From Candidatus Woesearchaeota archaeon (GTDB taxonomy: Archaea; Nanobdellota; Nanobdellia; Woesearchaeales; JAFGPW01): a stretch of DNA of 64,000 nt. Position numbers and translations under genes: made by a program. The stretch is taken from positions 186,001-250,000 of the forward strand of contig JAFGPW010000005.1 in the NCBI GenBank assembly GCA_016935985.1. The letters are read 5' to 3'. This document shows positions 592-13,377 of this stretch, one piece after another; position 1 is the stretch's first letter, and every line of letters begins with the position of its first letter. Under the pieces are notes generated by a model that had not been told where the DNA came from, searched no databases, and was given only the letters and a program-made list of their open reading frames with translations.

Positions 592-750
592 ATGAGTCTC
601 GGAAAAAGAGGTATCACCGTCACCTGGGAGATGTTCCTGTATTTCGCCGTGGCGATAGTCGGGCTCATCATCTTCATCTGGATAGCGATGAGCAGCAACA
701 ACTCAATCCTCGGCGACTTCCTCTCACAATTCTTCGGGTTCCTGCCATGA
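592..750 (+). CDS. Small prepilin-like membrane protein (GKRG-ITVTWEM + hydrophobic helix)
   Basis: ORF 547-750, internal ATG at 592 preferred; N-term MSLGKRGITVTWEMFLYFAVAIVGLIIFIW. Confidence 0.65.
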   Translation: MSLGKRGITVTWEMFLYFAVAIVGLIIFIWIAMSSNNSILGDFLSQFFGFLP

Positions 751-1106
751 GACGACCACTTCCTGCCGGCCGGAAAGGGGACATAAGCCAGTTCGTGCTC
801 ATCATCGGTGCGCTCCTGGGAGTCGCCGTCTTCCTCGGCGTCGTGCTGCCGCCGCTCCTCTCGAACCAGTGGGTTTCTTTCACGGTCAACGATACGATCG
901 ACGACGCCCAAGGGCGGTTCCCCATCCACTGCGCCGACGACTCGGCGGAAGGATGTCGGACGCACGACGTCGGGTACCAGACAGAATCAGAAAACCCCCT
1001 GGGGGGATTTTCCGGCCAGTGCGACATAGATTTGTATCGCTGCATCAAGCAGGACCCGCTCTGCGACGACGCCTACTGCACCTGCATCGTCGAGTGTATG
1101 GGATGA
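747..1106 (+). CDS. Prepilin-like membrane-anchored small Cys-rich protein
   Basis: ATGA overlap with upstream stop; GRKGDISQFVLIIGALLGVAVFLGVVL then Cys-rich C-term (CDIDLYRCIKQDPLCDDAYCTCIVECMG). Confidence 0.7.
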   Translation: MRRPLPAGRKGDISQFVLIIGALLGVAVFLGVVLPPLLSNQWVSFTVNDTIDDAQGRFPIHCADDSAEGCRTHDVGYQTESENPLGGFSGQCDIDLYRCIKQDPLCDDAYCTCIVECMG

Positions 1107-1435
1107 TGACCATGATACCTCCCGCACGCGGCAGACGAGGAGAGCTCTCGTTCCAGATAATCGTGATAGCGGCGCTCTGCCTGCTCATCCTCGTCATCCT
1201 CGCGATCATCATCACCGGCAGGTTCGGGGTTTTCAACAAGAGCCTCTCCCAGACCTGTACGCAGCAGGGAGGGGTCTGTGCGGCGGCGGACCCGCAGAAC
1301 ACGAACGACCGGCTGTGCGACAGCCCGGACTACCCGATCAAGATCTTCGCCAACGGCTGCAGCGACGACGGCTCGATCTCGACGACGAAGGACGTCGGGC
1401 CGTGCTGCCTGCCGCTCGCGAGGCAGGGACAATGA
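1103..1435 (+). CDS. Prepilin-like membrane-anchored small Cys-rich (CC-motif) protein
   Basis: Start codons at 1103/1106/1112 overlap upstream stop; GRRGELSFQIIVIAALCLLILVILAIII; CTQQGGVC...GPCCLP. Confidence 0.7.
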   Translation: MMTMIPPARGRRGELSFQIIVIAALCLLILVILAIIITGRFGVFNKSLSQTCTQQGGVCAAADPQNTNDRLCDSPDYPIKIFANGCSDDGSISTTKDVGPCCLPLARQGQ

Positions 1436-1662
1436 GGATGCGACGCGGGATGCTCTCGATGGAGGTGCTGGTTATGATAGCCATCGCCCTCATCGTGCTC
1501 TTCCTCGCGTTCTACATGGTCACGACCCGGTCGAGCGTCGCGGACAGGAGCCTGAACGACTGCGTCGCCAACAACGGGGTATGCAAGCAGTACTGCGACG
1601 GCATGCCGACCGGCTACACCGGCTGCCCTGAAGGGCAGTCCTGCTGCGTCGAGCCAGGATGA
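1432..1662 (+). CDS. Prepilin-like membrane-anchored small Cys-rich (knottin-like spacing) protein
   Basis: ATGA overlap; RMRRGMLSMEVLVMIAIALIVLFLAF; CVANNGVCKQYCDGMPTGYTGCPEGQSCCVEPG. Confidence 0.7.
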   Translation: MRMRRGMLSMEVLVMIAIALIVLFLAFYMVTTRSSVADRSLNDCVANNGVCKQYCDGMPTGYTGCPEGQSCCVEPG

Positions 1663-1676
1663 TCGTGAGGTGTGTC

Positions 1677-2150
1677 ATGATGAACAAGCGCGGAGAAGTC
1701 CAGTTCTGGGTGGTCGCCCTCGCGATCGCCCTGCTCGTCCTCTGGGTGTCGAGCTCGTTCGCCGGCAGGACCGGCTCCTCGGTCTTCAGGACCGTCAGCA
1801 AGATCGAGTTCCAGAGCTCGATGGGGCTGTGCGAAGGGAGGTCGGCGAGCCTGAAGAACAGCCCCCAGTGGATCGACGTCGACGGCGACGGCAACTACGA
1901 CGGCTGCGACGTCTGCATCCTCGACCCTGAATCTCGTAACGGACCTGCCGGGAGCGTGCAAGACTCCGACTTCGACCTCGTGCCCGACGCCTGCGAGAGC
2001 GATCAGACCAAGAACGACCAGAGCAAGATCCAATGCGCATACGCGGTGGTAAACATCGAGAAACGGGAGTTCCATTGCTGTTCGTTCTCTGGTACGAGAT
2101 GCATGAACCCTCCCGATGGGCCTCCCTGCATAACCTGCGGCCCGACATGA
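1677..2150 (+). CDS. Prepilin-like membrane-anchored protein with Asp-rich/Cys ectodomain
   Basis: ORF 1659-2150; GAGGTG SD then ATG at 1677; MNKRGEVQFWVVALAIALLVLWV; DVDGDGNYDGCDVC motif. Confidence 0.7.
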   Translation: MMNKRGEVQFWVVALAIALLVLWVSSSFAGRTGSSVFRTVSKIEFQSSMGLCEGRSASLKNSPQWIDVDGDGNYDGCDVCILDPESRNGPAGSVQDSDFDLVPDACESDQTKNDQSKIQCAYAVVNIEKREFHCCSFSGTRCMNPPDGPPCITCGPT

Positions 2151-2190
2151 CCCCGCATGACTGCCCGGCCCCACTATAAAGGATGATGAT

Positions 2191-3306
2191 ATGAGGAATA
2201 TCTCTCACGACAGGCGGGGAATGGGCGACGAGCTGCTGCGCATGCTCTTCGTCATCGTCGGCATCATCCTGATAGTCACTATGACCCTCATCATGCTGAA
2301 GGTGACCGGTCTCCTCGGACCCACCAAGGCGGAGGATACGGCGCGGGCGTCGCTCGAGCGGCTCGCGTGGGCAGTGCGCGAGATCCTTGAGGACGACACC
2401 GTCTATTCGCAGACGGTCGTCCCGCAGCTCTCGATCCCTGATGGCTATATCATCGTCGGCTTCGACACCGAATGGGACGGCCTGCGCACCGTCACCGACC
2501 ACCAGTTCGACGAGTACGTGATAAAGCCCTCCGAGCCGCCGGAGGACTGCTCAGGGTCCGCCTGCCTGTGCCTGTACGAGAACACCGAGGGGCCGGATTT
2601 CGGCGACTACAGCTGGAACCTCGGCGGCTACAAGCAGGACAACTTCCTGATCGACTGCGTGCGGCTGCGCGGCGACATAGTCTTCCTCGGCCCCACCGAC
2701 GAGTTCGACCAGGACGTGAAGAACTACGGCCAGCTGCGGAATCCGATCGTCCAGCCGCTCTTCGCGGAGACGCCGCTCGCGGACCGCCGGTACGAGTACC
2801 TCCTGCTCTATGGCGTCACCCACCACGCGGGGACCGTCGGCAGGGACGAGTGGAGGGCGACGAACATGTACGTCGAGAAGACGGCTGTCCAGATCGCTGA
2901 CGGCCAGGAACGGACGCTCGTCTACATCGCCAAGTGGAATGACGATTCCTTGCGCAGGAAGGCGAGGATCGGGATGATCGCGCCCGGCAACGAACCCTGC
3001 CCCGACTCATCGACCGTCTTCCAGTGCAACGGCGTCCGCAGGGACCAGGTAGTAACGGCCGAGATCATACCGGTCGGCCTCGGCACTGCCCCTCCCTCAG
3101 GGACGAGGGAAGAGCGCTTCTACCAGTGCGCCTACGACGAGAGCGATGGCGCCTGCTCGTTCGACGAGATCCCTCCCTGCATACCGCCAGGAGGCGTCCA
3201 GGCGACGAACGTCAGGCTCTACACCCTCTGCCGCTGCGGCGACCTCGCCTACTATGACGGCGTGTGCTACGGCAACGAGCTCTACCTGACCGAGCAGGGG
3301 GGCTGA
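2191..3306 (+). CDS. Membrane-anchored Cys-containing ectodomain protein, paralog A
   Basis: RRGMGDELLRMLFVIVGIILIVTMTLIM; ACLCLYE and RYTLCRCGDLAYYDGVCYG-type Cys motifs shared with the next CDS. Confidence 0.75.
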   Translation: MRNISHDRRGMGDELLRMLFVIVGIILIVTMTLIMLKVTGLLGPTKAEDTARASLERLAWAVREILEDDTVYSQTVVPQLSIPDGYIIVGFDTEWDGLRTVTDHQFDEYVIKPSEPPEDCSGSACLCLYENTEGPDFGDYSWNLGGYKQDNFLIDCVRLRGDIVFLGPTDEFDQDVKNYGQLRNPIVQPLFAETPLADRRYEYLLLYGVTHHAGTVGRDEWRATNMYVEKTAVQIADGQERTLVYIAKWNDDSLRRKARIGMIAPGNEPCPDSSTVFQCNGVRRDQVVTAEIIPVGLGTAPPSGTREERFYQCAYDESDGACSFDEIPPCIPPGGVQATNVRLYTLCRCGDLAYYDGVCYGNELYLTEQGG

Positions 3307-3308
3307 CG

Positions 3309-4379
3309 ATGCGACCGCTCACCGGACGGAGGGGGGACACGCACCGCATCCTCTCCATCTTCATCGACACCATCATCTTCATCATCTTCATCGTCCTCAT
3401 CCTCACGGTCTTCTCCAAGGCCTACTCCGGCTGCCCGCTCATCCCGAAGGATTACCAGTCCGCGAAGTTCAGCGCCGAGTACCTCAGGGCGGAGCTGCTC
3501 GACCTCATCGACGAGAAAGGGACCTATGCGGTCTATGACAACGTGCCCATCAACATCAATCCCGGCTACGCCTACGCCCTCTTCGGCACCGCGTACGAGC
3601 CGATGTACCCCTGGTTCCTGCTCGACGACATCGAGAGCGTCACCGCACGGCCCATCGGGTTCTCGCTGGTGCGGATTCAGAAGCCCAAAGTCCCCGCCTG
3701 CGAGGACAAGGCATGCCTCTGCATCTACGAGTTCGAGCTCGATCAGGACAACTTCGCGGCGTCGCAGGAGAACATCGAATGCCTAACCATAACCCACGAT
3801 CCTGTAACCTTCGTCACCTACCGCGGCTACGGCACCTATTCCGACGTCCCGCAGGACGAGATCTACCCGGAAGGGCTGCCCAAACTCCTGCTCAGCGGCG
3901 CGTATAGGGGGCGTGAGCGGGTGTACGGGACGCCGGTCCTCCATGGCGAGGGGACGTCTCAGACCGGGATTCGCAATACCTGGAACCACCGGTCCCTCTA
4001 TCTCGACAAGTACACGAAGGAGGATGGCGAGACGATCGTCTTCATCGCGCTCCTCTCGGACGAGGTGATGCGACGCTCGATACTCTGGACCAACCGGGCG
4101 CTCAACAATCCTCCCTGCGAGCGGGGCCAGCCGTTCTGCATCACCGCGAACCGAGGGGAGGTCATCCTGGTCGAGCACGCATTCGGCGAGAATCCCGGGA
4201 ACCGCTACTACGCGTGCCCCTATGACGCGGCAGAACAGGCGTGCCTGATCGAGGGCCCCTACCCCCTCTGTCAGGATCGGACTGCCATCGAGGACTGGTG
4301 CCAGTGCGGCGACCTGGTCTGGTACACGGGCTTCTGCAGGGAGGGCGTCTGGTACCGCGAGGACCCCGGCCTCGCCTAA
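3309..4379 (+). CDS. Membrane-anchored Cys-containing ectodomain protein, paralog B
   Basis: GRRGDTHRILSIFIDTIIFIIFIVLIL; ACLCIYE and CQCGDLVWYTGFCREG motifs aligned with paralog A. Confidence 0.75.
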   Translation: MRPLTGRRGDTHRILSIFIDTIIFIIFIVLILTVFSKAYSGCPLIPKDYQSAKFSAEYLRAELLDLIDEKGTYAVYDNVPININPGYAYALFGTAYEPMYPWFLLDDIESVTARPIGFSLVRIQKPKVPACEDKACLCIYEFELDQDNFAASQENIECLTITHDPVTFVTYRGYGTYSDVPQDEIYPEGLPKLLLSGAYRGRERVYGTPVLHGEGTSQTGIRNTWNHRSLYLDKYTKEDGETIVFIALLSDEVMRRSILWTNRALNNPPCERGQPFCITANRGEVILVEHAFGENPGNRYYACPYDAAEQACLIEGPYPLCQDRTAIEDWCQCGDLVWYTGFCREGVWYREDPGLA

Positions 4380-4407
4380 AGGGCCGCACTGCCCGCCACA
4401 GCCAAAA

Positions 4408-4416
4408 AGATATAAA
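4408..4416 (+). promoter_or_regulatory. Internal TATA box upstream of the amidase-like CDS
   Basis: aaagatataaatagcacc about 27-30 nt before ATG 4441. Confidence 0.5.
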
Positions 4417-4440
4417 TAGCACCGGTCCCCCTTTAAATAC

Positions 4441-5541
4441 ATGGCTGCGGGGAAAAGAGGTGCGAGCAGGTTTCTCGTCTCGAAGCGGGGCGACGTCACG
4501 GAGGCGCTCCTCTTCAGGATCCTGGAAGCGCTCATCGCGATGCTCGCGGTCGTCGCGATGTTCGCCTTCATCGACGCCTACGCCGCGAACACCGTCCTCG
4601 AGAAGATGTACTTCGCGCGGGACCTGGCCTATCTCACCGACATCGTCCAGGCGAGCCCCTACGGGATCGAGGTCACCTACTACAACCCCAGCTTCGCCGA
4701 GGTGCCGCTCTCCACGTTCGAGGTCACGTTCGTCAGGAACGAGGTGGACATCAGGGGCGGCGAGGAGGAGATGGAGATCTATTATCCCCTCGCCTACAGC
4801 GAGCTCTTCACCACTCCGCTCTCGGCGCACCTCCAGAACCCGGGAGCCATTACCTTCTCCAAGACCGACACCGGCCTCCTGATAACCAATCCCTGGGAGC
4901 AGGGCCTCGACCCCCGGCTGCTCACCTGCCCGCCGCATGAGCAGGACACCGAGCTCTCCACCATCGACATCGTCCTCGACCCTGCCCACGGCGGCGCCGA
5001 CCACGGGGCAGAGAACCGGGCGGCGCTCCTGCAGCAGCCGCCGATCGAGCTCTTCGAGTCGCGCCAGGCCTTCCTCATCGCGAACGGCGCGCTCTCGCGG
5101 CTCAGGCCTGACGTCAGCTCCGTATCGCTCACGCGCGGGGAGGACGCCTCGCCGACGCTCGAGGAGCGCCAGGCTGTCGTCTCACCCGAGACCGACGTCT
5201 TCATATCCATCGGCACCGGCAGCGACCCTGAGCTGCTGATCGGCGAGCTGCGCGCCTACATCCCTCCCGAGTACGCGCTCCGCGACAACAACACGCGGCT
5301 CGCGTGCCTGCTCACGAACGCCATCCTCGAAGCGGTCCCCTCCCTCTCGCGGGCTGCGGTCATCGTCTCGGACGACCCGCTCCTCGACCTGCCCCATCCG
5401 GAAGGGTCAGACCCGAAGACGCTCGCGGTCATGCTCGAGATCGGCAACATCCAGATACCGCCTGCCGAGAACCCCCTCTCGACAGACTGGGACACGATCG
5501 CGGGAGCCGTCGACGCCGGCTTCCGGAGGTACTACCGATGA
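4441..5541 (+). CDS. Membrane-anchored N-acetylmuramoyl-L-alanine amidase (Amidase_3)-like protein, one metal-ligand position apparently replaced
   Basis: SKRGDVTEALLFRILEALIAMLAVVAMF; IVLDPAHGGADHGAEN, LTRGEDASPTLEERQAVV, DVFISIGTGSDP (usually SIHAN), AVMLEIGNI. Confidence 0.65.
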   Translation: MAAGKRGASRFLVSKRGDVTEALLFRILEALIAMLAVVAMFAFIDAYAANTVLEKMYFARDLAYLTDIVQASPYGIEVTYYNPSFAEVPLSTFEVTFVRNEVDIRGGEEEMEIYYPLAYSELFTTPLSAHLQNPGAITFSKTDTGLLITNPWEQGLDPRLLTCPPHEQDTELSTIDIVLDPAHGGADHGAENRAALLQQPPIELFESRQAFLIANGALSRLRPDVSSVSLTRGEDASPTLEERQAVVSPETDVFISIGTGSDPELLIGELRAYIPPEYALRDNNTRLACLLTNAILEAVPSLSRAAVIVSDDPLLDLPHPEGSDPKTLAVMLEIGNIQIPPAENPLSTDWDTIAGAVDAGFRRYYR

Positions 5542-6074
5542 TACGCGGCAGGCGTGGCGGCGTCTGGCTCGATTCGCTCACCATGATGCTCAGGATGGGC
5601 TTCCTGATCATCGTCTTCATCACGCTCGTCCTCCTGGTCCGCAGCTACAACGTGGCGGTCATCGAGACCTACGAGACCGAGGCGCTCGTGTTCGCGAACG
5701 CGGTGATATACTCCCCTGACGCGATATCCTACCACGACCCCGAGATAAACAGGGTCTACCCCGCGATCATCGACCGCACGAGGTTCAAGCCGGGCATCGA
5801 GCCGCGCCTCGACGAGGTCTTCAGCTACGGCGACACGAACACCCAGATCGCCGCGCAGATGACGCTCCGGCCGGTCGGCGAGACGCCGATAACGATCGTC
5901 TACAACAGGGACAGGTTCGACGCCTGGTACCAGCTCGCCTCGACGAGCTACGGCGCCCTCGGGCCCGGCGGCGTCGAGAAGCGCGAGTACGCCTTCCCGG
6001 TCCTCGCGAGGGACCAGGCAGGCGACCTCACGCAGGCGGACCTCGACTTCATCATCGTCATGCCACGGTCATAG
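5538..6074 (+). CDS. Prepilin-like membrane-anchored protein of unknown function
   Basis: ATG overlaps upstream stop; GRRGGVWLDSLTMMLRMGFLIIVFITLVLLV. Confidence 0.7.
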   Translation: MIRGRRGGVWLDSLTMMLRMGFLIIVFITLVLLVRSYNVAVIETYETEALVFANAVIYSPDAISYHDPEINRVYPAIIDRTRFKPGIEPRLDEVFSYGDTNTQIAAQMTLRPVGETPITIVYNRDRFDAWYQLASTSYGALGPGGVEKREYAFPVLARDQAGDLTQADLDFIIVMPRS

Positions 6075-6078
6075 GGCT

Positions 6079-6666
6079 ATGGGAACAGGACACACGGCAT
6101 CAAGGAAGCGCGCCCAGGCAGGGCCAGTCGTCGACTTCTGGTCGTACCTAGCCTTCATACTCATCGTGATCGTCTTCTTCATCATCTTCCAGTTCTCCGG
6201 CGGCGAGAAATCAGACAACAAGGTGCTCGCCACGCAGGCGGACATGGACCTCAAGATGGAATTCCTCAACTTCATGCGCCTGCCGGTCGTTTCGCTCATC
6301 CCGCGCATCGACCTCGCCCGGCTCAACGAGGCCCAGCTCGCGGTCTACGACGAGGCGACGCTGCGGGACATGCGCATCGCCGAGGTCTTCCATCTCATGA
6401 CGGTCGAGATGTACGGCGCAGACGGCGACCGGCTCTGGAACGAGAACGACGTCGTCGGGTTCGTCAACGCGGTCGCGGAGCAGACGACCACGGCGCTCAG
6501 GGAAGAATACTGCTCCATCACGCCGCTCCTGCGCAAGAACGTCGCGAATCGGCTGGTCGCCCAGTACTCGTTCCCGCTCCCCTATGACCTTGAGAAGCGC
6601 ACGGTCGACATTAACCTCTATTGCATCGCAAAGGACGACGGGCGTCCGGGAGGAGGGTTCCTATGA
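6079..6666 (+). CDS. Single-TM membrane protein of unknown function
   Basis: Hydrophobic helix VDFWSYLAFILIVIVFFIIFQF near N-term; co-directional, ATGA overlap with next gene. Confidence 0.7.
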   Translation: MGTGHTASRKRAQAGPVVDFWSYLAFILIVIVFFIIFQFSGGEKSDNKVLATQADMDLKMEFLNFMRLPVVSLIPRIDLARLNEAQLAVYDEATLRDMRIAEVFHLMTVEMYGADGDRLWNENDVVGFVNAVAEQTTTALREEYCSITPLLRKNVANRLVAQYSFPLPYDLEKRTVDINLYCIAKDDGRPGGGFL

Positions 6667-7742
6667 TGAAGACCCGCATCCGTTCTGGCCGTCGGGCTCT
6701 CATCTTCGTTCCCTTCGTCGTCATCATGCTGCTCGCTGCGCTGATCACCGCGCTCGTGCTCCTCAGCCAGAAAGGGGACCCGTTCAACGAGCGCTTCATC
6801 GGCATGAGCCAGTACGAGGTGATCGACGCCTACCAGAAGGGCGAGGACGCCCTCCTCTACATCGACCTCTCGGCCGAGCACGCGGCGAGGCAAGCGCTCT
6901 TCGACCTCGGCCAGGGCGGCGGCTACGACCTCCTCGGCGGCACCTATAACGAGGAGGAGAGCCCCTGCGGCACCTACCTCGGCTTCGCGAGCTGGGGGGA
7001 CACCCAGAAGACCTGCTTCCCCAGGCCGGCGCAGCTCGAGGACGCCTTCGAGATCTACTTCTCGCGGAACCTCGACGAGTACCTCAACGCCTATCCCCTC
7101 TTCCCGCTGCCCCTCATCGACACGATAGCCCTGCGGACCGACGGCGATGCGCTGACGATCATCGGCACCACCACCGGCATGATGGAGATCCCGATCGGCG
7201 CGTACACGAGACCCAGCGAGTACGGCATGTTCGCCTGGCCGCTCGACCTCTCGAAGCCCAAGAATCGGCTGATCACCTCCTGCATCGGGCTGCGCGACTG
7301 CACCAACTGCCTGGACAGGGACCACGACGGCACCGACATCGACAGCGTCGACGAGGCGGTGCCTGCGCCGGCCGAGCCGGTACTCGCTATCGCTTCAGGG
7401 ACGGTGGTGAAAGGCGCGAATGACCCGGACGATTTCAACACGACCATCATCGACCACGGCGGCGGCTACACCTCGCGCTACCTTCATCTGAACACGCGAG
7501 AGGTGCTGCGCGGCGACATGGTCGTCCAGGGCCAGAGGATCGGTACCGTCGGCGGTGCGGGGCCGCTTCCCTATGGTTGGCACCTCCATTTCGAGATCCG
7601 CAAGGACAACCACAGGCTCGACCCCCTCACCTTCTACGACCTCGACGCCCTCGACCTCGTCTTCTGGGAGCAGTCGAACTGCTACTACCGCGCCTACACC
7701 TACCCCTATGCCGCCTATATCCTGACCCATACGACACCATGA
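6663..7742 (+). CDS. Membrane-anchored M23 (LytM-like) metallopeptidase
   Basis: RSGRRALIFVPFVVIMLLAALITALVLL; HDGTD (HxGxD), SRYLHL, GQRIGTVGGAG, GWHLHFEIR (HxH). Confidence 0.85.
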   Translation: MMKTRIRSGRRALIFVPFVVIMLLAALITALVLLSQKGDPFNERFIGMSQYEVIDAYQKGEDALLYIDLSAEHAARQALFDLGQGGGYDLLGGTYNEEESPCGTYLGFASWGDTQKTCFPRPAQLEDAFEIYFSRNLDEYLNAYPLFPLPLIDTIALRTDGDALTIIGTTTGMMEIPIGAYTRPSEYGMFAWPLDLSKPKNRLITSCIGLRDCTNCLDRDHDGTDIDSVDEAVPAPAEPVLAIASGTVVKGANDPDDFNTTIIDHGGGYTSRYLHLNTREVLRGDMVVQGQRIGTVGGAGPLPYGWHLHFEIRKDNHRLDPLTFYDLDALDLVFWEQSNCYYRAYTYPYAAYILTHTTP

Positions 7743-10700
7743 GGAACCGCCCCAACCGACGGACCAGCGCAGCAGCATTCGGCCAGGCAGCGGTGCTGCT
7801 CTTCCTGCTCCTCCCTCTCGCCTCGGCGCTCGATGCCCCTGCCGTCACGAAGGGGGCGGTCACGCCCGAACCCCTCCCCACTGACGGGTTCGGCAGGGTC
7901 ATCCCTTCCGCCTCTGCTCTCCCCGAGCAGACGTCGCCTCCGGATCCCGTTCCCGGGCGCCAGCCGCTCTCCTTCCCTGCGGCCGCCGTGCTCCTCATCA
8001 CCAGCATCCTCGGCTGCTCGCTCTACTACAGGCACGACGACGACCATCTCCCTGAGCGGCGGCCGCTCATCACCCTCCTCTTCACCCTCGCTGTCGTCCT
8101 CGGCGCGCTCATGGTCTACCTGCTCGCCGGCACGTCGGGCGACGGCGGCATCACCGGCGCGGTCACCGTCGACGACGCCCTCCTCGCGCTGATCTCATCC
8201 TACGACCCGGCGATAAGCCAGGCCTCGATCCAGTACGGCGTCGAGGTCCCGCTCATCAAGGCGGTGATGACCCGGGAATCGCGGGGGGTGGCCGACATCG
8301 TCTCGCCGGTCGGGGCGGCGGGGCTCATGCAGCTCATGCCCGGCACCGCCAGGGACGAGGGTCTCGAGGTGCCCGACTACCCGCAGAGCGGGACGATGAT
8401 GATCGACGGGCAGCAGTACTCCCTCGTAACACCGATCACCGACCCGGCGGTCGACGAGCGGTTCGACCCGGAGAAGAACATCAGGGCGGGGACCGCCTAC
8501 CTGAAGAAGCAGCTCGCCGCCTTCACGACGATGGAGCTCGCGCTCGCCGCCTACAACTGGGGCCCGGGCAATGTGGAGGACAACTGCGCGGCCGGCTGGA
8601 CGAGCTGCACGAACCTGCCCGACGAGACGCGCTCCTATGTCGGCAACGTCAGCGCGTACTACACCTACTACGGCGGGAGGGGACTCTCCGCGGTCATCGG
8701 CAGCAGCGGGCGCTACCTGCTCAAGCCCTCGTTCAAGCACACCATGTACCAGAACTTCGACGCCTACTCCCATGTCGCAGAGGCCCTGGTGAACGCGACG
8801 ACGCTGTGCTCCGGCAACCACCAGTGCGTCGCCGACTGGGTCGTGATGAACGACGAATGGCGCCTCGACGAGGCCTTCATCCCGCAGTCGACCGGCTACG
8901 ACTGGCTGATACGGGCGGACGGCGAGGTCCTCACCACCCTGGCGAACGCCACCGACGTCTTCCCCGAGACGGAGAAGTGGTTCGACTACTGCGAGACCCC
9001 GGGGGAAGTCTTCTTCAACGACTTCGTGGAGTCCTTCCTCGTCTGCAACGAGTCGGTCCAGGACGGCTGCGTCTGCAACATCAGCATCCCGGACATGGAC
9101 ATCGACTACTATTACGATATCATCCTCGACAACTACTCGGAGAAGGCCGAGCGCTTCGGACCTGCCGAAGGCGATCCCGCCATGACCCGGTTCTCCTTCC
9201 GCGTCAATCCCGACTGGCCGCAGGACACCTCGTCGCCGATCCTCTACGACACCGCGCTCAACGCGACCAACTACGTGCGGTTCAACGCATCCTCACATGA
9301 GCTCGCGTTCGAGCCGGAGACGGCCGAGCAGACGGTCCTCACCTACCGCCACACCGGCACCTGCGTGCCCCTCCTCGGCTGCGTCAACATGGACTTCTGG
9401 ATCAACCGGGACGAGCTCCACACCGGCAGGGTCCCGCTCGACGAGGCGATCGGCTACAAGCTCTACAAGAGCGATGAGAGGATGGGCATCCTGTCCCCCG
9501 AAGCGCATGAGGCGTATGACGACGCCCACGCCGACGCGCCGCTCGAGTACTGCGCTGTCCGCCCCCGGATGCTGAAGGTGTGCGTGCTCACCGCGCACCC
9601 GCAGTTCGAAGACCTGTACCAGGACACCTACTTCGACCGCTACCGGAAAGAGCAGCATGAGACCAACCCCCTCATCAAGCTCGCCTTCTACAACCGCGAC
9701 GTCGTCCCGCCGCCGCCGGTAGGGAACCTATCGGCCGTCGACAAGCTCCGCGACTCGGGACGGGTGCTCCTCAAGTGGACGGCGCCCGACGCCCAGGACA
9801 TCGCCGGCTACCGTATCTACCGCTCAGAGCGCGACCTGTCCGCGCTCACCCTCGAGCAGATCAGGAGGGTCATCGCCGAGCCGCCGAACGAGACGGAGCT
9901 CCGCATCCACGAGGAGTCCTTCGACGCCGAGGGCGTGCCCCAGCACTTCGGCAGCATCGACCTCTCCTACTGCTATTACAACCGGCTCCTCGGCGACTGC
10001 GTCTACATGGTGAGCGTCGAGAAGGACCTCGCAAGCTACCACTACCCCTTCCTCTTCGGCGCCTACCCGAAGGCGCATTTCTTCCTCGACCCCGACTACG
10101 TCTATATTGTTGACGTCCCTGACGGGATAGTCTATTCCTTCGTCGTCACCGCTTTCGACTTCGAGGGGAACGAGATCACGAACGACCCGGCGGATCCCTC
10201 CCAGCGCTTCCCGTCGGTCCGGGGCGGCTCCATCGACGACGCGCCGCCGGGCAACCCCCGCGACGTCGACATACGGATGAACCAGACCGCGGTGAACATC
10301 ACCCTCAGGCCCGACCCTGAGGTGACCGAGCTCTACTTCACCTTCGTCGAGCGCGACGACCGGAACCAGGCGCTCCACCAGGTCTCGACCACGATCGACC
10401 TGCTCCGGCCGCCGACGATCTACCCGATCACGCGGGAGGAGGACCGCATGACCATCACCTTCATGAACCTCGGTTTCATACCGACCGAGATCAGCGTACG
10501 GTCGAACAAGCGGTTCGACGAGGGCCAGACCGCGATGCAGGCGATACTGCTCACCGAAGGAAACATCGAGGTCACCTCCCCGATGCTCCGCAAGCGGCTC
10601 GCTGACGCCGGGCCGCCGCCGGCTTCTCCTGATGGCGGTTCCCCAGACGAACGCGATATCCCCGTCTGCCAATCCTGCCTCACCGATGCGATAGTCGCGG

Positions 10701-11044
10701 AGACGTGCAGGTGTCCGGATGGGTGCGGGCTTCCCGCGGGATCCACGATCGTCGGGGATTATTATAATAGTAAGAAAAACAGCATCGAGCGCTATGTCAG
10801 GTGCGAAGAGCAGAGCGGTGCCGCTGATGAGGCTGACCTAATGATCGGCAAGTCATTCGGCGACACGACCTTCGGGGCATTGGTCGTCGATTGTTTGGGC
10901 ATAACCTCCGCCTCCCAGTGCGACGAGTCCCAATCCTTGCCGCCCGGTGGACGCTGTAAGTGTCCCGCCATATGCACGAAGGGAGGCGATACGATTGGGG
11001 ACGACGAGGATTGCGGGAGCGCCGTGCAGTCTTCTCCACCATAA
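7739..11044 (+). CDS. Large membrane protein with SLT-type lytic transglycosylase domain and Fn3-like/Cys-rich extensions
   Basis: ORF 7577-11044, ATG 7739 overlaps the upstream stop; TRESRGVADIVSPVGAAGLMQLMPGTA, NIRAGTAYLKKQL, ALAAYNWGPGNV; Fn3-like LLKWTAPDAQDIAGYRIYRSE. Confidence 0.85.
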   Translation: MRNRPNRRTSAAAFGQAAVLLFLLLPLASALDAPAVTKGAVTPEPLPTDGFGRVIPSASALPEQTSPPDPVPGRQPLSFPAAAVLLITSILGCSLYYRHDDDHLPERRPLITLLFTLAVVLGALMVYLLAGTSGDGGITGAVTVDDALLALISSYDPAISQASIQYGVEVPLIKAVMTRESRGVADIVSPVGAAGLMQLMPGTARDEGLEVPDYPQSGTMMIDGQQYSLVTPITDPAVDERFDPEKNIRAGTAYLKKQLAAFTTMELALAAYNWGPGNVEDNCAAGWTSCTNLPDETRSYVGNVSAYYTYYGGRGLSAVIGSSGRYLLKPSFKHTMYQNFDAYSHVAEALVNATTLCSGNHQCVADWVVMNDEWRLDEAFIPQSTGYDWLIRADGEVLTTLANATDVFPETEKWFDYCETPGEVFFNDFVESFLVCNESVQDGCVCNISIPDMDIDYYYDIILDNYSEKAERFGPAEGDPAMTRFSFRVNPDWPQDTSSPILYDTALNATNYVRFNASSHELAFEPETAEQTVLTYRHTGTCVPLLGCVNMDFWINRDELHTGRVPLDEAIGYKLYKSDERMGILSPEAHEAYDDAHADAPLEYCAVRPRMLKVCVLTAHPQFEDLYQDTYFDRYRKEQHETNPLIKLAFYNRDVVPPPPVGNLSAVDKLRDSGRVLLKWTAPDAQDIAGYRIYRSERDLSALTLEQIRRVIAEPPNETELRIHEESFDAEGVPQHFGSIDLSYCYYNRLLGDCVYMVSVEKDLASYHYPFLFGAYPKAHFFLDPDYVYIVDVPDGIVYSFVVTAFDFEGNEITNDPADPSQRFPSVRGGSIDDAPPGNPRDVDIRMNQTAVNITLRPDPEVTELYFTFVERDDRNQALHQVSTTIDLLRPPTIYPITREEDRMTITFMNLGFIPTEISVRSNKRFDEGQTAMQAILLTEGNIEVTSPMLRKRLADAGPPPASPDGGSPDERDIPVCQSCLTDAIVAETCRCPDGCGLPAGSTIVGDYYNSKKNSIERYVRCEEQSGAADEADLMIGKSFGDTTFGALVVDCLGITSASQCDESQSLPPGGRCKCPAICTKGGDTIGDDEDCGSAVQSSPP

Positions 11045-11108: not shown

Positions 11109-12185
11109 ATGATCCGCATGCCCTATGAGAAGATCATCGGGAAGATCAAGGAGAGCGCGAAGCTCTCCGACCAGGAGATCGACGAGAGGATCAAGCTCAA
11201 GCTCAGCCAGCTCGCCGGGCTCATCTCGAAGGAGGGCGCCGCCCACATCGTCGCGAACGAGCTCGGCATCAAGCTCTTCGACGCGAACGGCGGCAAATTC
11301 AAGATCCAGGACATCCTGATGGGCATGAGAAGCGTCGAGACCGTCGGGCGCGTCACCCAGGTCTTCCCGACGAGCGAGTTCACCCGGCGGGACGGCACGC
11401 CCTCGAAGGTCGGCTCGTTCGTCATCGGCGACGAGACCGGCACCATCCGGGTCGCCTGCTGGGGCGACAAGGCGGACGTGCTCAAGGGGCTCAGGCCTGG
11501 CGACATCGTGAAGGTCAAGGACACGTATGTGCGGGACAACCGCGGCAGGCTCGAACTCCACGCGAACGACCGCGCGGTCATCCAGGTGAACCCTGCAGGC
11601 GAGAGCGCGCCCGAGATACCGGTGCGCCAGGCGCAGGCCCGCACCAGGAAGAAGATAGCCGACCTCCAGGAGAACGACCAGGACGTCGAGCTGCTCGGCA
11701 CCATCGTCCAGGTCTTCGACCCGCGCTACTTCGAGGTCTGCCCTGACTGCAACAGGCGCGTGCGCGACGCGGGCGACGGGTTCTCCTGCGAGCAGCACGG
11801 CAAAGTGACGCCCGACCTCTCCTTCGTCTTCAACCTCTTCATCGACGACGGCTCTGAGACCATCCGCGTTGTCTGCTTCAGGAACCAGGCGGTGAACCTC
11901 ACGGGGAGGACGCAGGGAGAGATAATCGCCATGCGCGACCAGCCCGAGGCTATCGAAGCGATCAAGACCGACCTCTTGGGGAACACCATCAAGGTCGTCG
12001 GCCGCGCGGTCAAGAATGAGATGTTCGGCCGGCTCGAGTTCATCGCGAACATCGTGGACCCGAAGCCAGACCCGAAAGATGAGGTCTCGAGGCTCAAGGA
12101 TGAGATCGCGAAAGAGGAAGCCGGCCAGAAGCCGTCAGCCCAGCCGCAACCTTTTTCTGCAGATGCCGCTTTCCCTCCCCCATGA
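11109..12185 (+). CDS. rpa: Replication factor A / RPA-like OB-fold single-stranded DNA-binding protein
   Basis: OB-fold motifs VGRVTQVFP...GTIRVACWGDKADVL...VKVKDTYVRDNRGRLELH; zinc-finger-like CPDCNRRV...CEQHG; ATG 11109 fits TATA. Confidence 0.85.
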   Translation: MIRMPYEKIIGKIKESAKLSDQEIDERIKLKLSQLAGLISKEGAAHIVANELGIKLFDANGGKFKIQDILMGMRSVETVGRVTQVFPTSEFTRRDGTPSKVGSFVIGDETGTIRVACWGDKADVLKGLRPGDIVKVKDTYVRDNRGRLELHANDRAVIQVNPAGESAPEIPVRQAQARTRKKIADLQENDQDVELLGTIVQVFDPRYFEVCPDCNRRVRDAGDGFSCEQHGKVTPDLSFVFNLFIDDGSETIRVVCFRNQAVNLTGRTQGEIIAMRDQPEAIEAIKTDLLGNTIKVVGRAVKNEMFGRLEFIANIVDPKPDPKDEVSRLKDEIAKEEAGQKPSAQPQPFSADAAFPPP

Positions 12186-12931
12186 GACCCCTTTGGCTCC
12201 TGCTCCCGCTGTGCCTGCTCTTCCTCCTGCTCCTCTCCGACTACCTCATCTTCGATTCGGCGAACGACTTGCCCCCTCCGGTATCCCGAACCGTCCTCCT
12301 CGGCTTCGACCTCGAGGAGCCGGACACTGACGAGGATGTCGCGGCACTCCTGGACCTGCTCGAAGCGCACAGCGCGAGTGCCACCTTCTTCGTGGTGGGA
12401 AAGGTCGCCGAGGAGCGGCCCGAGCTGATGCGGTCGATCCTCGCCGCAGGCCACGAGCTCGCCTGCCATTCCTATTCGCATCCCCAGCTCACCGGCCTGT
12501 CCGAGGCAGGGCAGCGGGAAGAGCTCACGCGATGCGCAGAAGCGCTCCAAGGCCTCGGCATCGAGCATCCGGGGTTCCGGGCGCCCTATACCCGGACGGA
12601 CCGGCACCTCGTGAGCCTGCTCGCTGGCCTCGGCTACGCCTACGACGCCTCCTATATCGAGGAATGGACGCATGCGCCGCGGGCTGGCGTCCCTGGGATC
12701 AAGGTCTCGGCCTCGTTCCTGCCGCTCACCGACTACTATTGGCTCTACCTGCTACGGAGCCCCGGGCCCTTCTACGCTGCGCTCAGGGGGTACCCGGCAT
12801 CGCGGCTGCTCTCAGTGGACCTCCATCCGCGCTACGTGATGCGGTATCCCAGCCATCTGGGCGCCTATCTCGCCTGGTGCGAGGAGGCCGGATGCGCGTT
12901 CCTGAGCCATCAGGAGCTCATGAAAGGCTGA
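12182..12931 (+). CDS. Secreted or membrane-anchored polysaccharide deacetylase (NodB family)
   Basis: N-term hydrophobic helix; LGFDLEEPDT, SATFFVVGKVAE, HELACHSYSHP, GFRAPYTR. Confidence 0.85.
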   Translation: MRPLWLLLPLCLLFLLLLSDYLIFDSANDLPPPVSRTVLLGFDLEEPDTDEDVAALLDLLEAHSASATFFVVGKVAEERPELMRSILAAGHELACHSYSHPQLTGLSEAGQREELTRCAEALQGLGIEHPGFRAPYTRTDRHLVSLLAGLGYAYDASYIEEWTHAPRAGVPGIKVSASFLPLTDYYWLYLLRSPGPFYAALRGYPASRLLSVDLHPRYVMRYPSHLGAYLAWCEEAGCAFLSHQELMKG

Positions 12932-13107: not shown

Positions 13108-13377
13108 ATGGACAACGGAAAAAAAAACCTGCCGGAGCGGAAGTTCAAGGCAGGGCCTGTGTCTGCAGTGGTCTGGCTCAACCAGTCGGTCACCAAGGAG
13201 GGCGAGGTCCGCGGCTACGCGACCGTCTCCCTCGAACGCAACTACAAGGATAGGGACGGCGAGTGGCAGAAGACGTCATCGCTGCGCCTCTCCGACCTGC
13301 CGAAGGCTGCGCTGATGCTCAACAAGGCCTTCGAGTACCTGGTGACGAAGGACCAGGAATCTGGCTCTTCCGCCTAA
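13108..13377 (+). CDS. Small conserved archaeal-type protein of unknown function
   Basis: GGAGGT SD before ATG 13108; MDNGKKNLPERKFKAGPVSAVVWLNQ...SLRLSDLPKAALMLNKAFEYL. Confidence 0.65.
   Translation: MDNGKKNLPERKFKAGPVSAVVWLNQSVTKEGEVRGYATVSLERNYKDRDGEWQKTSSLRLSDLPKAALMLNKAFEYLVTKDQESGSSA

Follow-up and report, generated by a model that had tools for sequence, protein, structure and literature searches.

The window analysed here comprises 64,000 nucleotides (positions 186,001 to 250,000 of contig JAFGPW010000005.1; G000:C5:186001-250000) of an archaeal genome of 1.4 Mb and 92% completeness, assigned to Candidatus Woesearchaeota. At positions 592-11044 it carries twelve genes (g1-g12) read in one direction, as had been described in an earlier reading made without database searches (the sequence-only reading); neighbouring genes overlap by 1-4 bp at six junctions. 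Comparison with relatives showed that these genes belong to one conserved block encoding about ten families of predicted bitopic proteins with prepilin-like N-termini, and that the last subunit (g11, or g11 together with g12) is a putative carrier with an exchangeable murein hydrolase as its C-terminal part. The block probably encodes an undescribed, platform-independent pilin-like surface apparatus of Nanoarchaeia that presents murein hydrolases to bacteria.

Organisation of the gene block

The twelve genes form the 3' part of a block of 20 genes, U0 counted, whose start lies about 9 kb before the window. The genes of the sequence-only reading thus stand as stated, but the cluster continues upstream with eight more (U0, U1-U4 and U6-U8), the last of which ends at window base 480. 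U0, preceding U1, encodes a large surface protein of 1225 residues with an Ig-like part, Ca-binding DxDxDG repeats, one transmembrane (TM) helix and a basic tail; a repeated DxFxxL motif in this tail was dropped as a general feature, as it was not found generally. U1-U4 and U6-U8 (C5:180677-186480) have the same type of N-terminus as g1-g11. The KRG-type hydrophobic N-termini noted earlier were found again, a K/R-rich N-terminus followed by a single hydrophobic helix being present in every one of g1-g12 except g12. Among the window's cluster proteins scanned, Pfam returned nothing above its cut-off beyond the domains of g8, g11 and g12. The features, in window coordinates, are:

1-480, + strand: 3' part of U8, a homologue of U7 whose gene starts 620 bp before the window; class-III-like N-terminus and DxDxDG motifs for Ca binding; family in 42 loci
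592-750, + strand: g1, 52 residues; KRG and one hydrophobic helix
747-1106, + strand: g2, 119 residues; RKG and helix; Cys-rich
1106-1435, + strand: g3, small, pilin-like and rich in Cys; U6/g3/g4 family, with 1-5 members in each cluster
1432-1662, + strand: g4, likewise small, pilin-like and rich in Cys; U6/g3/g4 family
1677-2150, + strand: g5, KRG and helix
2191-3306, + strand: g6, RRG and helix; Cys-rich extracellular domain; family conserved
3309-4379, + strand: g7, RRG and helix; C-terminal CQCGDLVWYTGFC motif similar to its counterpart in g6
4441-5541, + strand: g8, pilin-like N-domain (family in 41 loci) and degenerate Amidase_3-like domain (Pfam 1.2e-7)
4969-5352, + strand: Amidase_3-like domain within g8; G in place of the third His, with H, E and the C-terminal E present
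5538-6074, + strand: g9, RRG and helix; family conserved in 44 loci
6079-6666, + strand: g10, KRA and helix; family conserved
6663-7742, + strand: g11, carrier; conserved N-domain (TM helix and helical CG..W..C.P domain) fused to M23
7323-7625, + strand: Peptidase_M23 domain of g11 (Pfam 7.8e-21); HDGTD, YLHL and HLHF residues intact
7739-11044, + strand: g12, hydrolase part split from the carrier; N-terminal hydrophobic helices, SLT; C-terminal region fused to g11 in relatives
8213-8584, + strand: SLT domain of g12 (Pfam 1.2e-23); catalytic RES...GAAGLMQLMPGTA, GLMQ and AYNWGPGNV intact
11109-12185, + strand: RPA, archaeal single-stranded DNA-binding protein; conserved downstream neighbour, not counted as a part of the complex

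Conservation in related genomes

Fifty-nine regions of related Nanoarchaeia (Woesearchaeota-type) genomes were retrieved and protein families were built iteratively. About 40 of the 59 loci share the order U0-U1-U2-U3-U4, U7/U8 with one to five small Cys-rich proteins (U6/g3/g4), and g6-g8-g9-g10-g11. Where both genes of a pair were present, they were adjacent in 35/36 (U1-U2), 41/42 (U2-U3) and 42/42 (U3-U4) loci of the upstream half, and in 32/38 (g6-g8), 35/39 (g8-g9), 33/39 (g9-g10) and 30/36 (g10-g11) loci of the downstream half. U1-U4 are separated from the remaining cluster genes in some genomes, and relatives of U0 adjoin U1 in about 25 of the 59 loci. All families have relatives in other loci except g1, g2, g5 and g7, for which none were detected. 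Family U2 is present in 260 of 378 genomes of the class and 91 of 102 genomes of the symbiont-like order, the N-domain of g11 in 196 and 93 of the same sets; of the six named records matching the DNA pattern of U2, most belong to Candidatus Woesearchaeota and Candidatus Nanoarchaeia. The block is syntenic throughout the order, and none of the outcomes that the sequence-only reading named as refuting it was encountered.

Hydrolase domains of bacterial type inside an archaeal bin could point to bacterial contamination or a chimeric assembly. Against this, RPA lies codirectionally less than 4 kb downstream of g11 in 44 of the 62 independent loci with room for it, and the GC content of the cluster (0.637) matches that of the rest of the window (0.629). 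We consider this explanation refuted, its probability being practically nil, and the archaeal origin argued earlier from the downstream marker genes stands.

Properties of the core subunits

Class-III-like N-termini ([KR][KR][GA] followed by a hydrophobic helix) were found in 430 of 572 cluster proteins versus 37 of 453 flanking proteins. In L034, a clean relative, ten core proteins gave no accepted NCBIfam or Pfam match, and the Pfam scan of this set returned neither a pilin family nor a class III signal family. The core protein families of the cluster are largely undescribed, in line with the earlier suggestion of an undescribed system.

The AlphaFold model of U2 (predicted local distance difference test score, pLDDT, 94.1) shows an N-terminal helix of 56 residues, a beta-rich domain and, at the C-terminus, a bundle of helices. 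No match at E<0.001 was returned from the PDB or from viral structures (BFVD), and a virus-derived structure was dropped for lack of a fold match in the latter. Profiles of U2, U3 and the g11 N-domain found no solved relative. The model of g11 is confident in parts only (mean pLDDT 73.5), and the fold of its N-domain was left uninterpreted. We use the term pilin-like because of the N-terminal motif, the long first helix of U2 and the prepilin peptidase retained in these genomes (see below). Comparison of the cluster families by hhalign gave near-universal high probabilities arising from the shared TM helix; only the homology of U7 and U8 (200 columns, E 1e-42) was trusted, and there are hints of a possible kinship between U3 and g9 and between U4 and g10.

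Exchangeable hydrolases on the last subunit

A first search with g11 matched many genomes of the same order, often in residues 1-150 only, which indicates that the conserved part is the N-domain and not the peptidase. The C-terminal pieces of g11 or of its downstream split partner were then scanned with Pfam (83 pieces, a sample enriched for long proteins, one piece being a flanking helicase). SLT was found 19 times, M23 17, Amidase_2 6, NlpC/P60 5, M74 3, and GDSL and 3D twice each; lysozyme types were also found, and GH25, Amidase_3, DUF2272, M15 and others occurred once each. These are the Pfam counts, as our own iterated SLT profile overcalled (29 versus 19). At least nine unrelated murein hydrolase families thus occupy the g11 position, singly or, in many cases, combined. 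Two-domain combinations are Amidase_3 with M74 (L104), Amidase_2 with SLT (L110) and NlpC with SLT (L169); the carrier of L163 bears Amidase_2, M23 and SLT, and that of L156 metallophosphatase, GDSL, M15, M23 and NlpC. In L119, M23 is on the carrier and GH25 next door. No wall-binding domain was recognised by Pfam in g11 or g12 of the window or among the 25 commonest Pfam families on the 83 pieces.

A hydrolase was assigned at 44 of 78 g11 loci, some (L155, L160, L170) from matches slightly under the Pfam cut-off. In the genomes of the order with a mapped g11, 17 of 75 SLT and 17 of 44 M23 hits were located at g11, compared with expected values of 0.2 and 0.12. The g11 N-domain tree, a weak tree with 7 starred branches, implies at least 27 changes of hydrolase type. 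Close relatives with support carry unlike hydrolases: L149 (SLT) and L152 (M23); L167 (Amidase_2) and L170 (M15); and L116 (Amidase_2), L032 (M23 and SLT) and L160 (NlpC). In genomes outside the order most g11 proteins have about 250 residues and no room for a hydrolase, which makes the hydrolase-armed g11 look like a derived form; the idea that hydrolases are the core of the system could not be upheld.

All three domain types named in the sequence-only reading were recovered by Pfam with the values listed above. In the M23 domain of g11 the zinc and catalytic residues (HxxxD, YxH, HxH) are kept, and its model matches the fold of the endopeptidase ShyA (E 3.9e-9). The SLT domain of g12 combines its family match with the catalytic Glu and the GLMQ and AYN motifs. 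In contrast to these two, the Amidase_3-like domain of g8 has H-E-G-E in place of H-E-H-E, with G (SIGTGSD) at the position of the third zinc His. With this ligand lost, two of the three enzyme classes proposed earlier, the M23 and the SLT of the window, look enzymatically active, while the amidase-like domain of g8 probably has a structural or binding role. H-E-H-E is kept in L036 and lost in most aligned relatives, some of which are fully decayed. Catalytic residues are also lost from the M23 of L033 and the SLT of L110; most other M23 and SLT domains keep them all.

The window's genome has a second SLT protein, membrane-anchored, at C4:198061-199572 (L187), adjoining two genes that resemble MacB/FtsX-type permeases, and a second M23 protein at C7:77862-79448 (L005) with a Tat-like N-terminus (RRRFLQALGLTAAAVGGG).

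Type IV filament machinery

Prepilin peptidase (Peptidase_A24) was found in 22 of 22 cluster-bearing genomes, 14 of which lack the platform protein T2SSF. Of 18 genomes selected among those with the cluster, 14 had no T2SSF; one of the 14, G234 (96% complete in 4 contigs), has the whole cluster. In eight of nine other cluster-bearing genomes T2SSF is present, away from the cluster. Within the cluster there is no motor or platform gene. T2SSE matches occur in 99 of 99 genomes of the order, and those in G234, G240, G168, G276, G296 and G176 are all weak; in the T2SSF-less genomes sampled they are mostly weak (~1e-15). A canonical type IV pilus was set aside, the platform genes being missing in many cluster-bearing genomes. 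We infer that the prepilin peptidase is retained for the sake of the cluster proteins and that these make up a complex lacking the usual motor. It is possible that a divergent motor serves the cluster. The cluster may function like a static pseudopilus with an enzymatic tip.

Proposed function and alternatives

Transpeptidases of PF00905 were absent from G000 and from 96 of 99 genomes of the order, so that no murein of their own is expected; remodelling of an own wall was dropped for this reason. Transpeptidase domains of penicillin-binding type occur in three of the 99 (G040:C1:1062871, G168:C3:119547 and G402:C263:5644), and the frame in G402, of 1207 residues, has an M23 match as well. The likely target is the bacterial wall. 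An archaeal M23 hydrolase was shown to kill bacteria (PMC12352652), and three further reports propose bacterial walls as the target of transglycosylases from Woesearchaeota and Pacearchaeota (PMC8204110, PMC9723730, PMC11537232).

In the proposed mechanism, prepilin peptidase would process the cluster subunits, and these would build a pilin-like complex or short pseudopilus in the archaeal membrane. The complex would hold the hydrolase outside the cell at a contact site with a bacterium and open the wall locally, for attachment, feeding or uptake. Hydrolase exchange would follow differences in the walls of partners or prey; the window organism would work with an M23 endopeptidase and an SLT transglycosylase. 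A bolder version sees a contact-dependent device ancestral to Nanoarchaeia, motor-free, matured by prepilin peptidase and armed with interchangeable murein hydrolases to open bacteria, whose owners are parasites or predators of bacteria and not of archaea. We put this forward tentatively, as a real possibility that falls short of probable.

Several observations weigh against a hydrolase-presenting pilin-like apparatus. The core proteins have no significant sequence or fold match to pilins, and many SLT and M23 proteins sit elsewhere in the genomes of the order. SLT or M23 is found at g11 in 30 of 86 genomes of the order with a mapped g11, an estimate free of length bias; a recognisable hydrolase at g11 may be lacking in about half of the order's genomes, so that hydrolysis is not the universal function.

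The hydrolases could instead be held at the surface for scavenging murein, digesting the debris of bacteria as a source of sugars, amino acids and fatty acids while live cells are not attacked. Carriers combining a GDSL lipase, a metallophosphatase and several hydrolases do suggest a digestion platform, as do the additional SLT and M23 proteins elsewhere in the genome and, from the literature, the many biosynthetic pathways that these archaea lack. Scavenging nevertheless seems unlikely, as it leaves unexplained a large, conserved multi-subunit complex that is kept even without hydrolases, when a simple secreted enzyme would suffice. We consider quite unlikely an apparatus for surface assembly or adhesion whose hydrolase-derived domains would bind wall glycans but not cut them, or would remodel the surface of the archaeon itself. 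It would account for the persistence of the g8 amidase domain, decayed in most relatives, for the catalytic losses in L033 and L110 and for the hydrolase-free versions; set against these are the intact catalytic residues of most M23 and SLT domains and the many unrelated hydrolase families at one site, which are hard to explain by binding alone. The cluster might also supply the pilins of a type IV pilus or competence-type pseudopilus driven by the type IV pilus ATPase and platform, for example in DNA acquisition, with RPA and RadA downstream. The class-III-like N-termini and the adjoining RPA fit this, and Makarova et al. found nanoarchaeal type IV pilus ATPases without cognate pilins (PMC4858521). 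However, the loss of T2SSF from most of the selected genomes that keep the cluster, such as G234, the mostly weak T2SSE matches in the sampled genomes without T2SSF and the absence of any Pfam pilin family match make it very unlikely.

The DPANN archaea in cultivation have other archaea as their hosts. With a near-universal surface complex that carries many bacterial-wall hydrolases, the question whether Woesearchaeota-type archaea live on bacteria becomes directly testable, and the hydrolase type could serve to predict the partner. About ten families absent from Pfam and NCBIfam, which rank with the most broadly conserved lineage-specific genes in a very large class of archaea, would also be given a shared role.

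Comparison with known systems

In polymorphic toxins and tail-tip lysozymes a conserved delivery part is joined to interchangeable C-terminal enzymes. The cluster resembles them in its conserved carrier with a variable C-terminal enzyme; it differs in that no immunity genes or phage-tail parts were recognised, the modules are nearly all wall-acting and the carrier is a single-pass membrane protein.

With type IV filaments (archaeal type IV pili, archaellum, Tad and competence pseudopili; PMC4858521) the cluster shares class-III-like N-termini, a long first helix, several minor-pilin-like subunits per operon and a genomic prepilin peptidase. Unlike them it has no clustered motor or platform gene, the platform is often missing from the genome, and there is no match to a pilin family or fold. 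The modular archaeal peptidoglycan hydrolases of the Woldo/Danwoldo type (PLoS Biol 2025, PMC12352652) likewise include M23 and other enzymes acting on bacterial murein, but they are secreted and defined by a catalytic and a wall-binding domain; in the cluster a membrane-anchored subunit of a conserved complex carries the enzyme as a module, and no Pfam wall-binding domain was seen among the families listed. The murein-like lytic transglycosylases of fam00969 (Castelle et al. 2021, PMC8204110; see also Vigneron et al. 2022, PMC9723730) are large extracellular SLT proteins of the same archaeal groups with a proposed action on bacterial walls. The text searched mentions no gene cluster, carrier domain or hydrolase exchange for this family, which may include g11 or g12. 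Module 98 of Castelle et al. comprises 51 co-occurring families, mostly of unknown function (PMC8204110). Our literature search found no description of the cluster, its carrier domain or the exchange of hydrolases.

Neighbouring genes

A giant open frame of at least 3652 residues lies immediately upstream of U0 (L003 1-10960, corresponding to G000:C5:166002-176960) and is cut by the end of that stretch. In G040 a run of N directly follows the cluster (L050 5714-6733). The product of window positions 12182-12931, between RPA and RadA, has a signal anchor as well as NodB-like motifs (LGFDLEEPDTDED, HSYSHPQL); it looks like a polysaccharide deacetylase and could act on wall glycans. Directly before RadA there is a small protein of ~75-100 residues (SLRLSDLPKAALMLNKAFEYLV; window near 13150-13377, L034 12978-13283) that is conserved alongside RPA and RadA.

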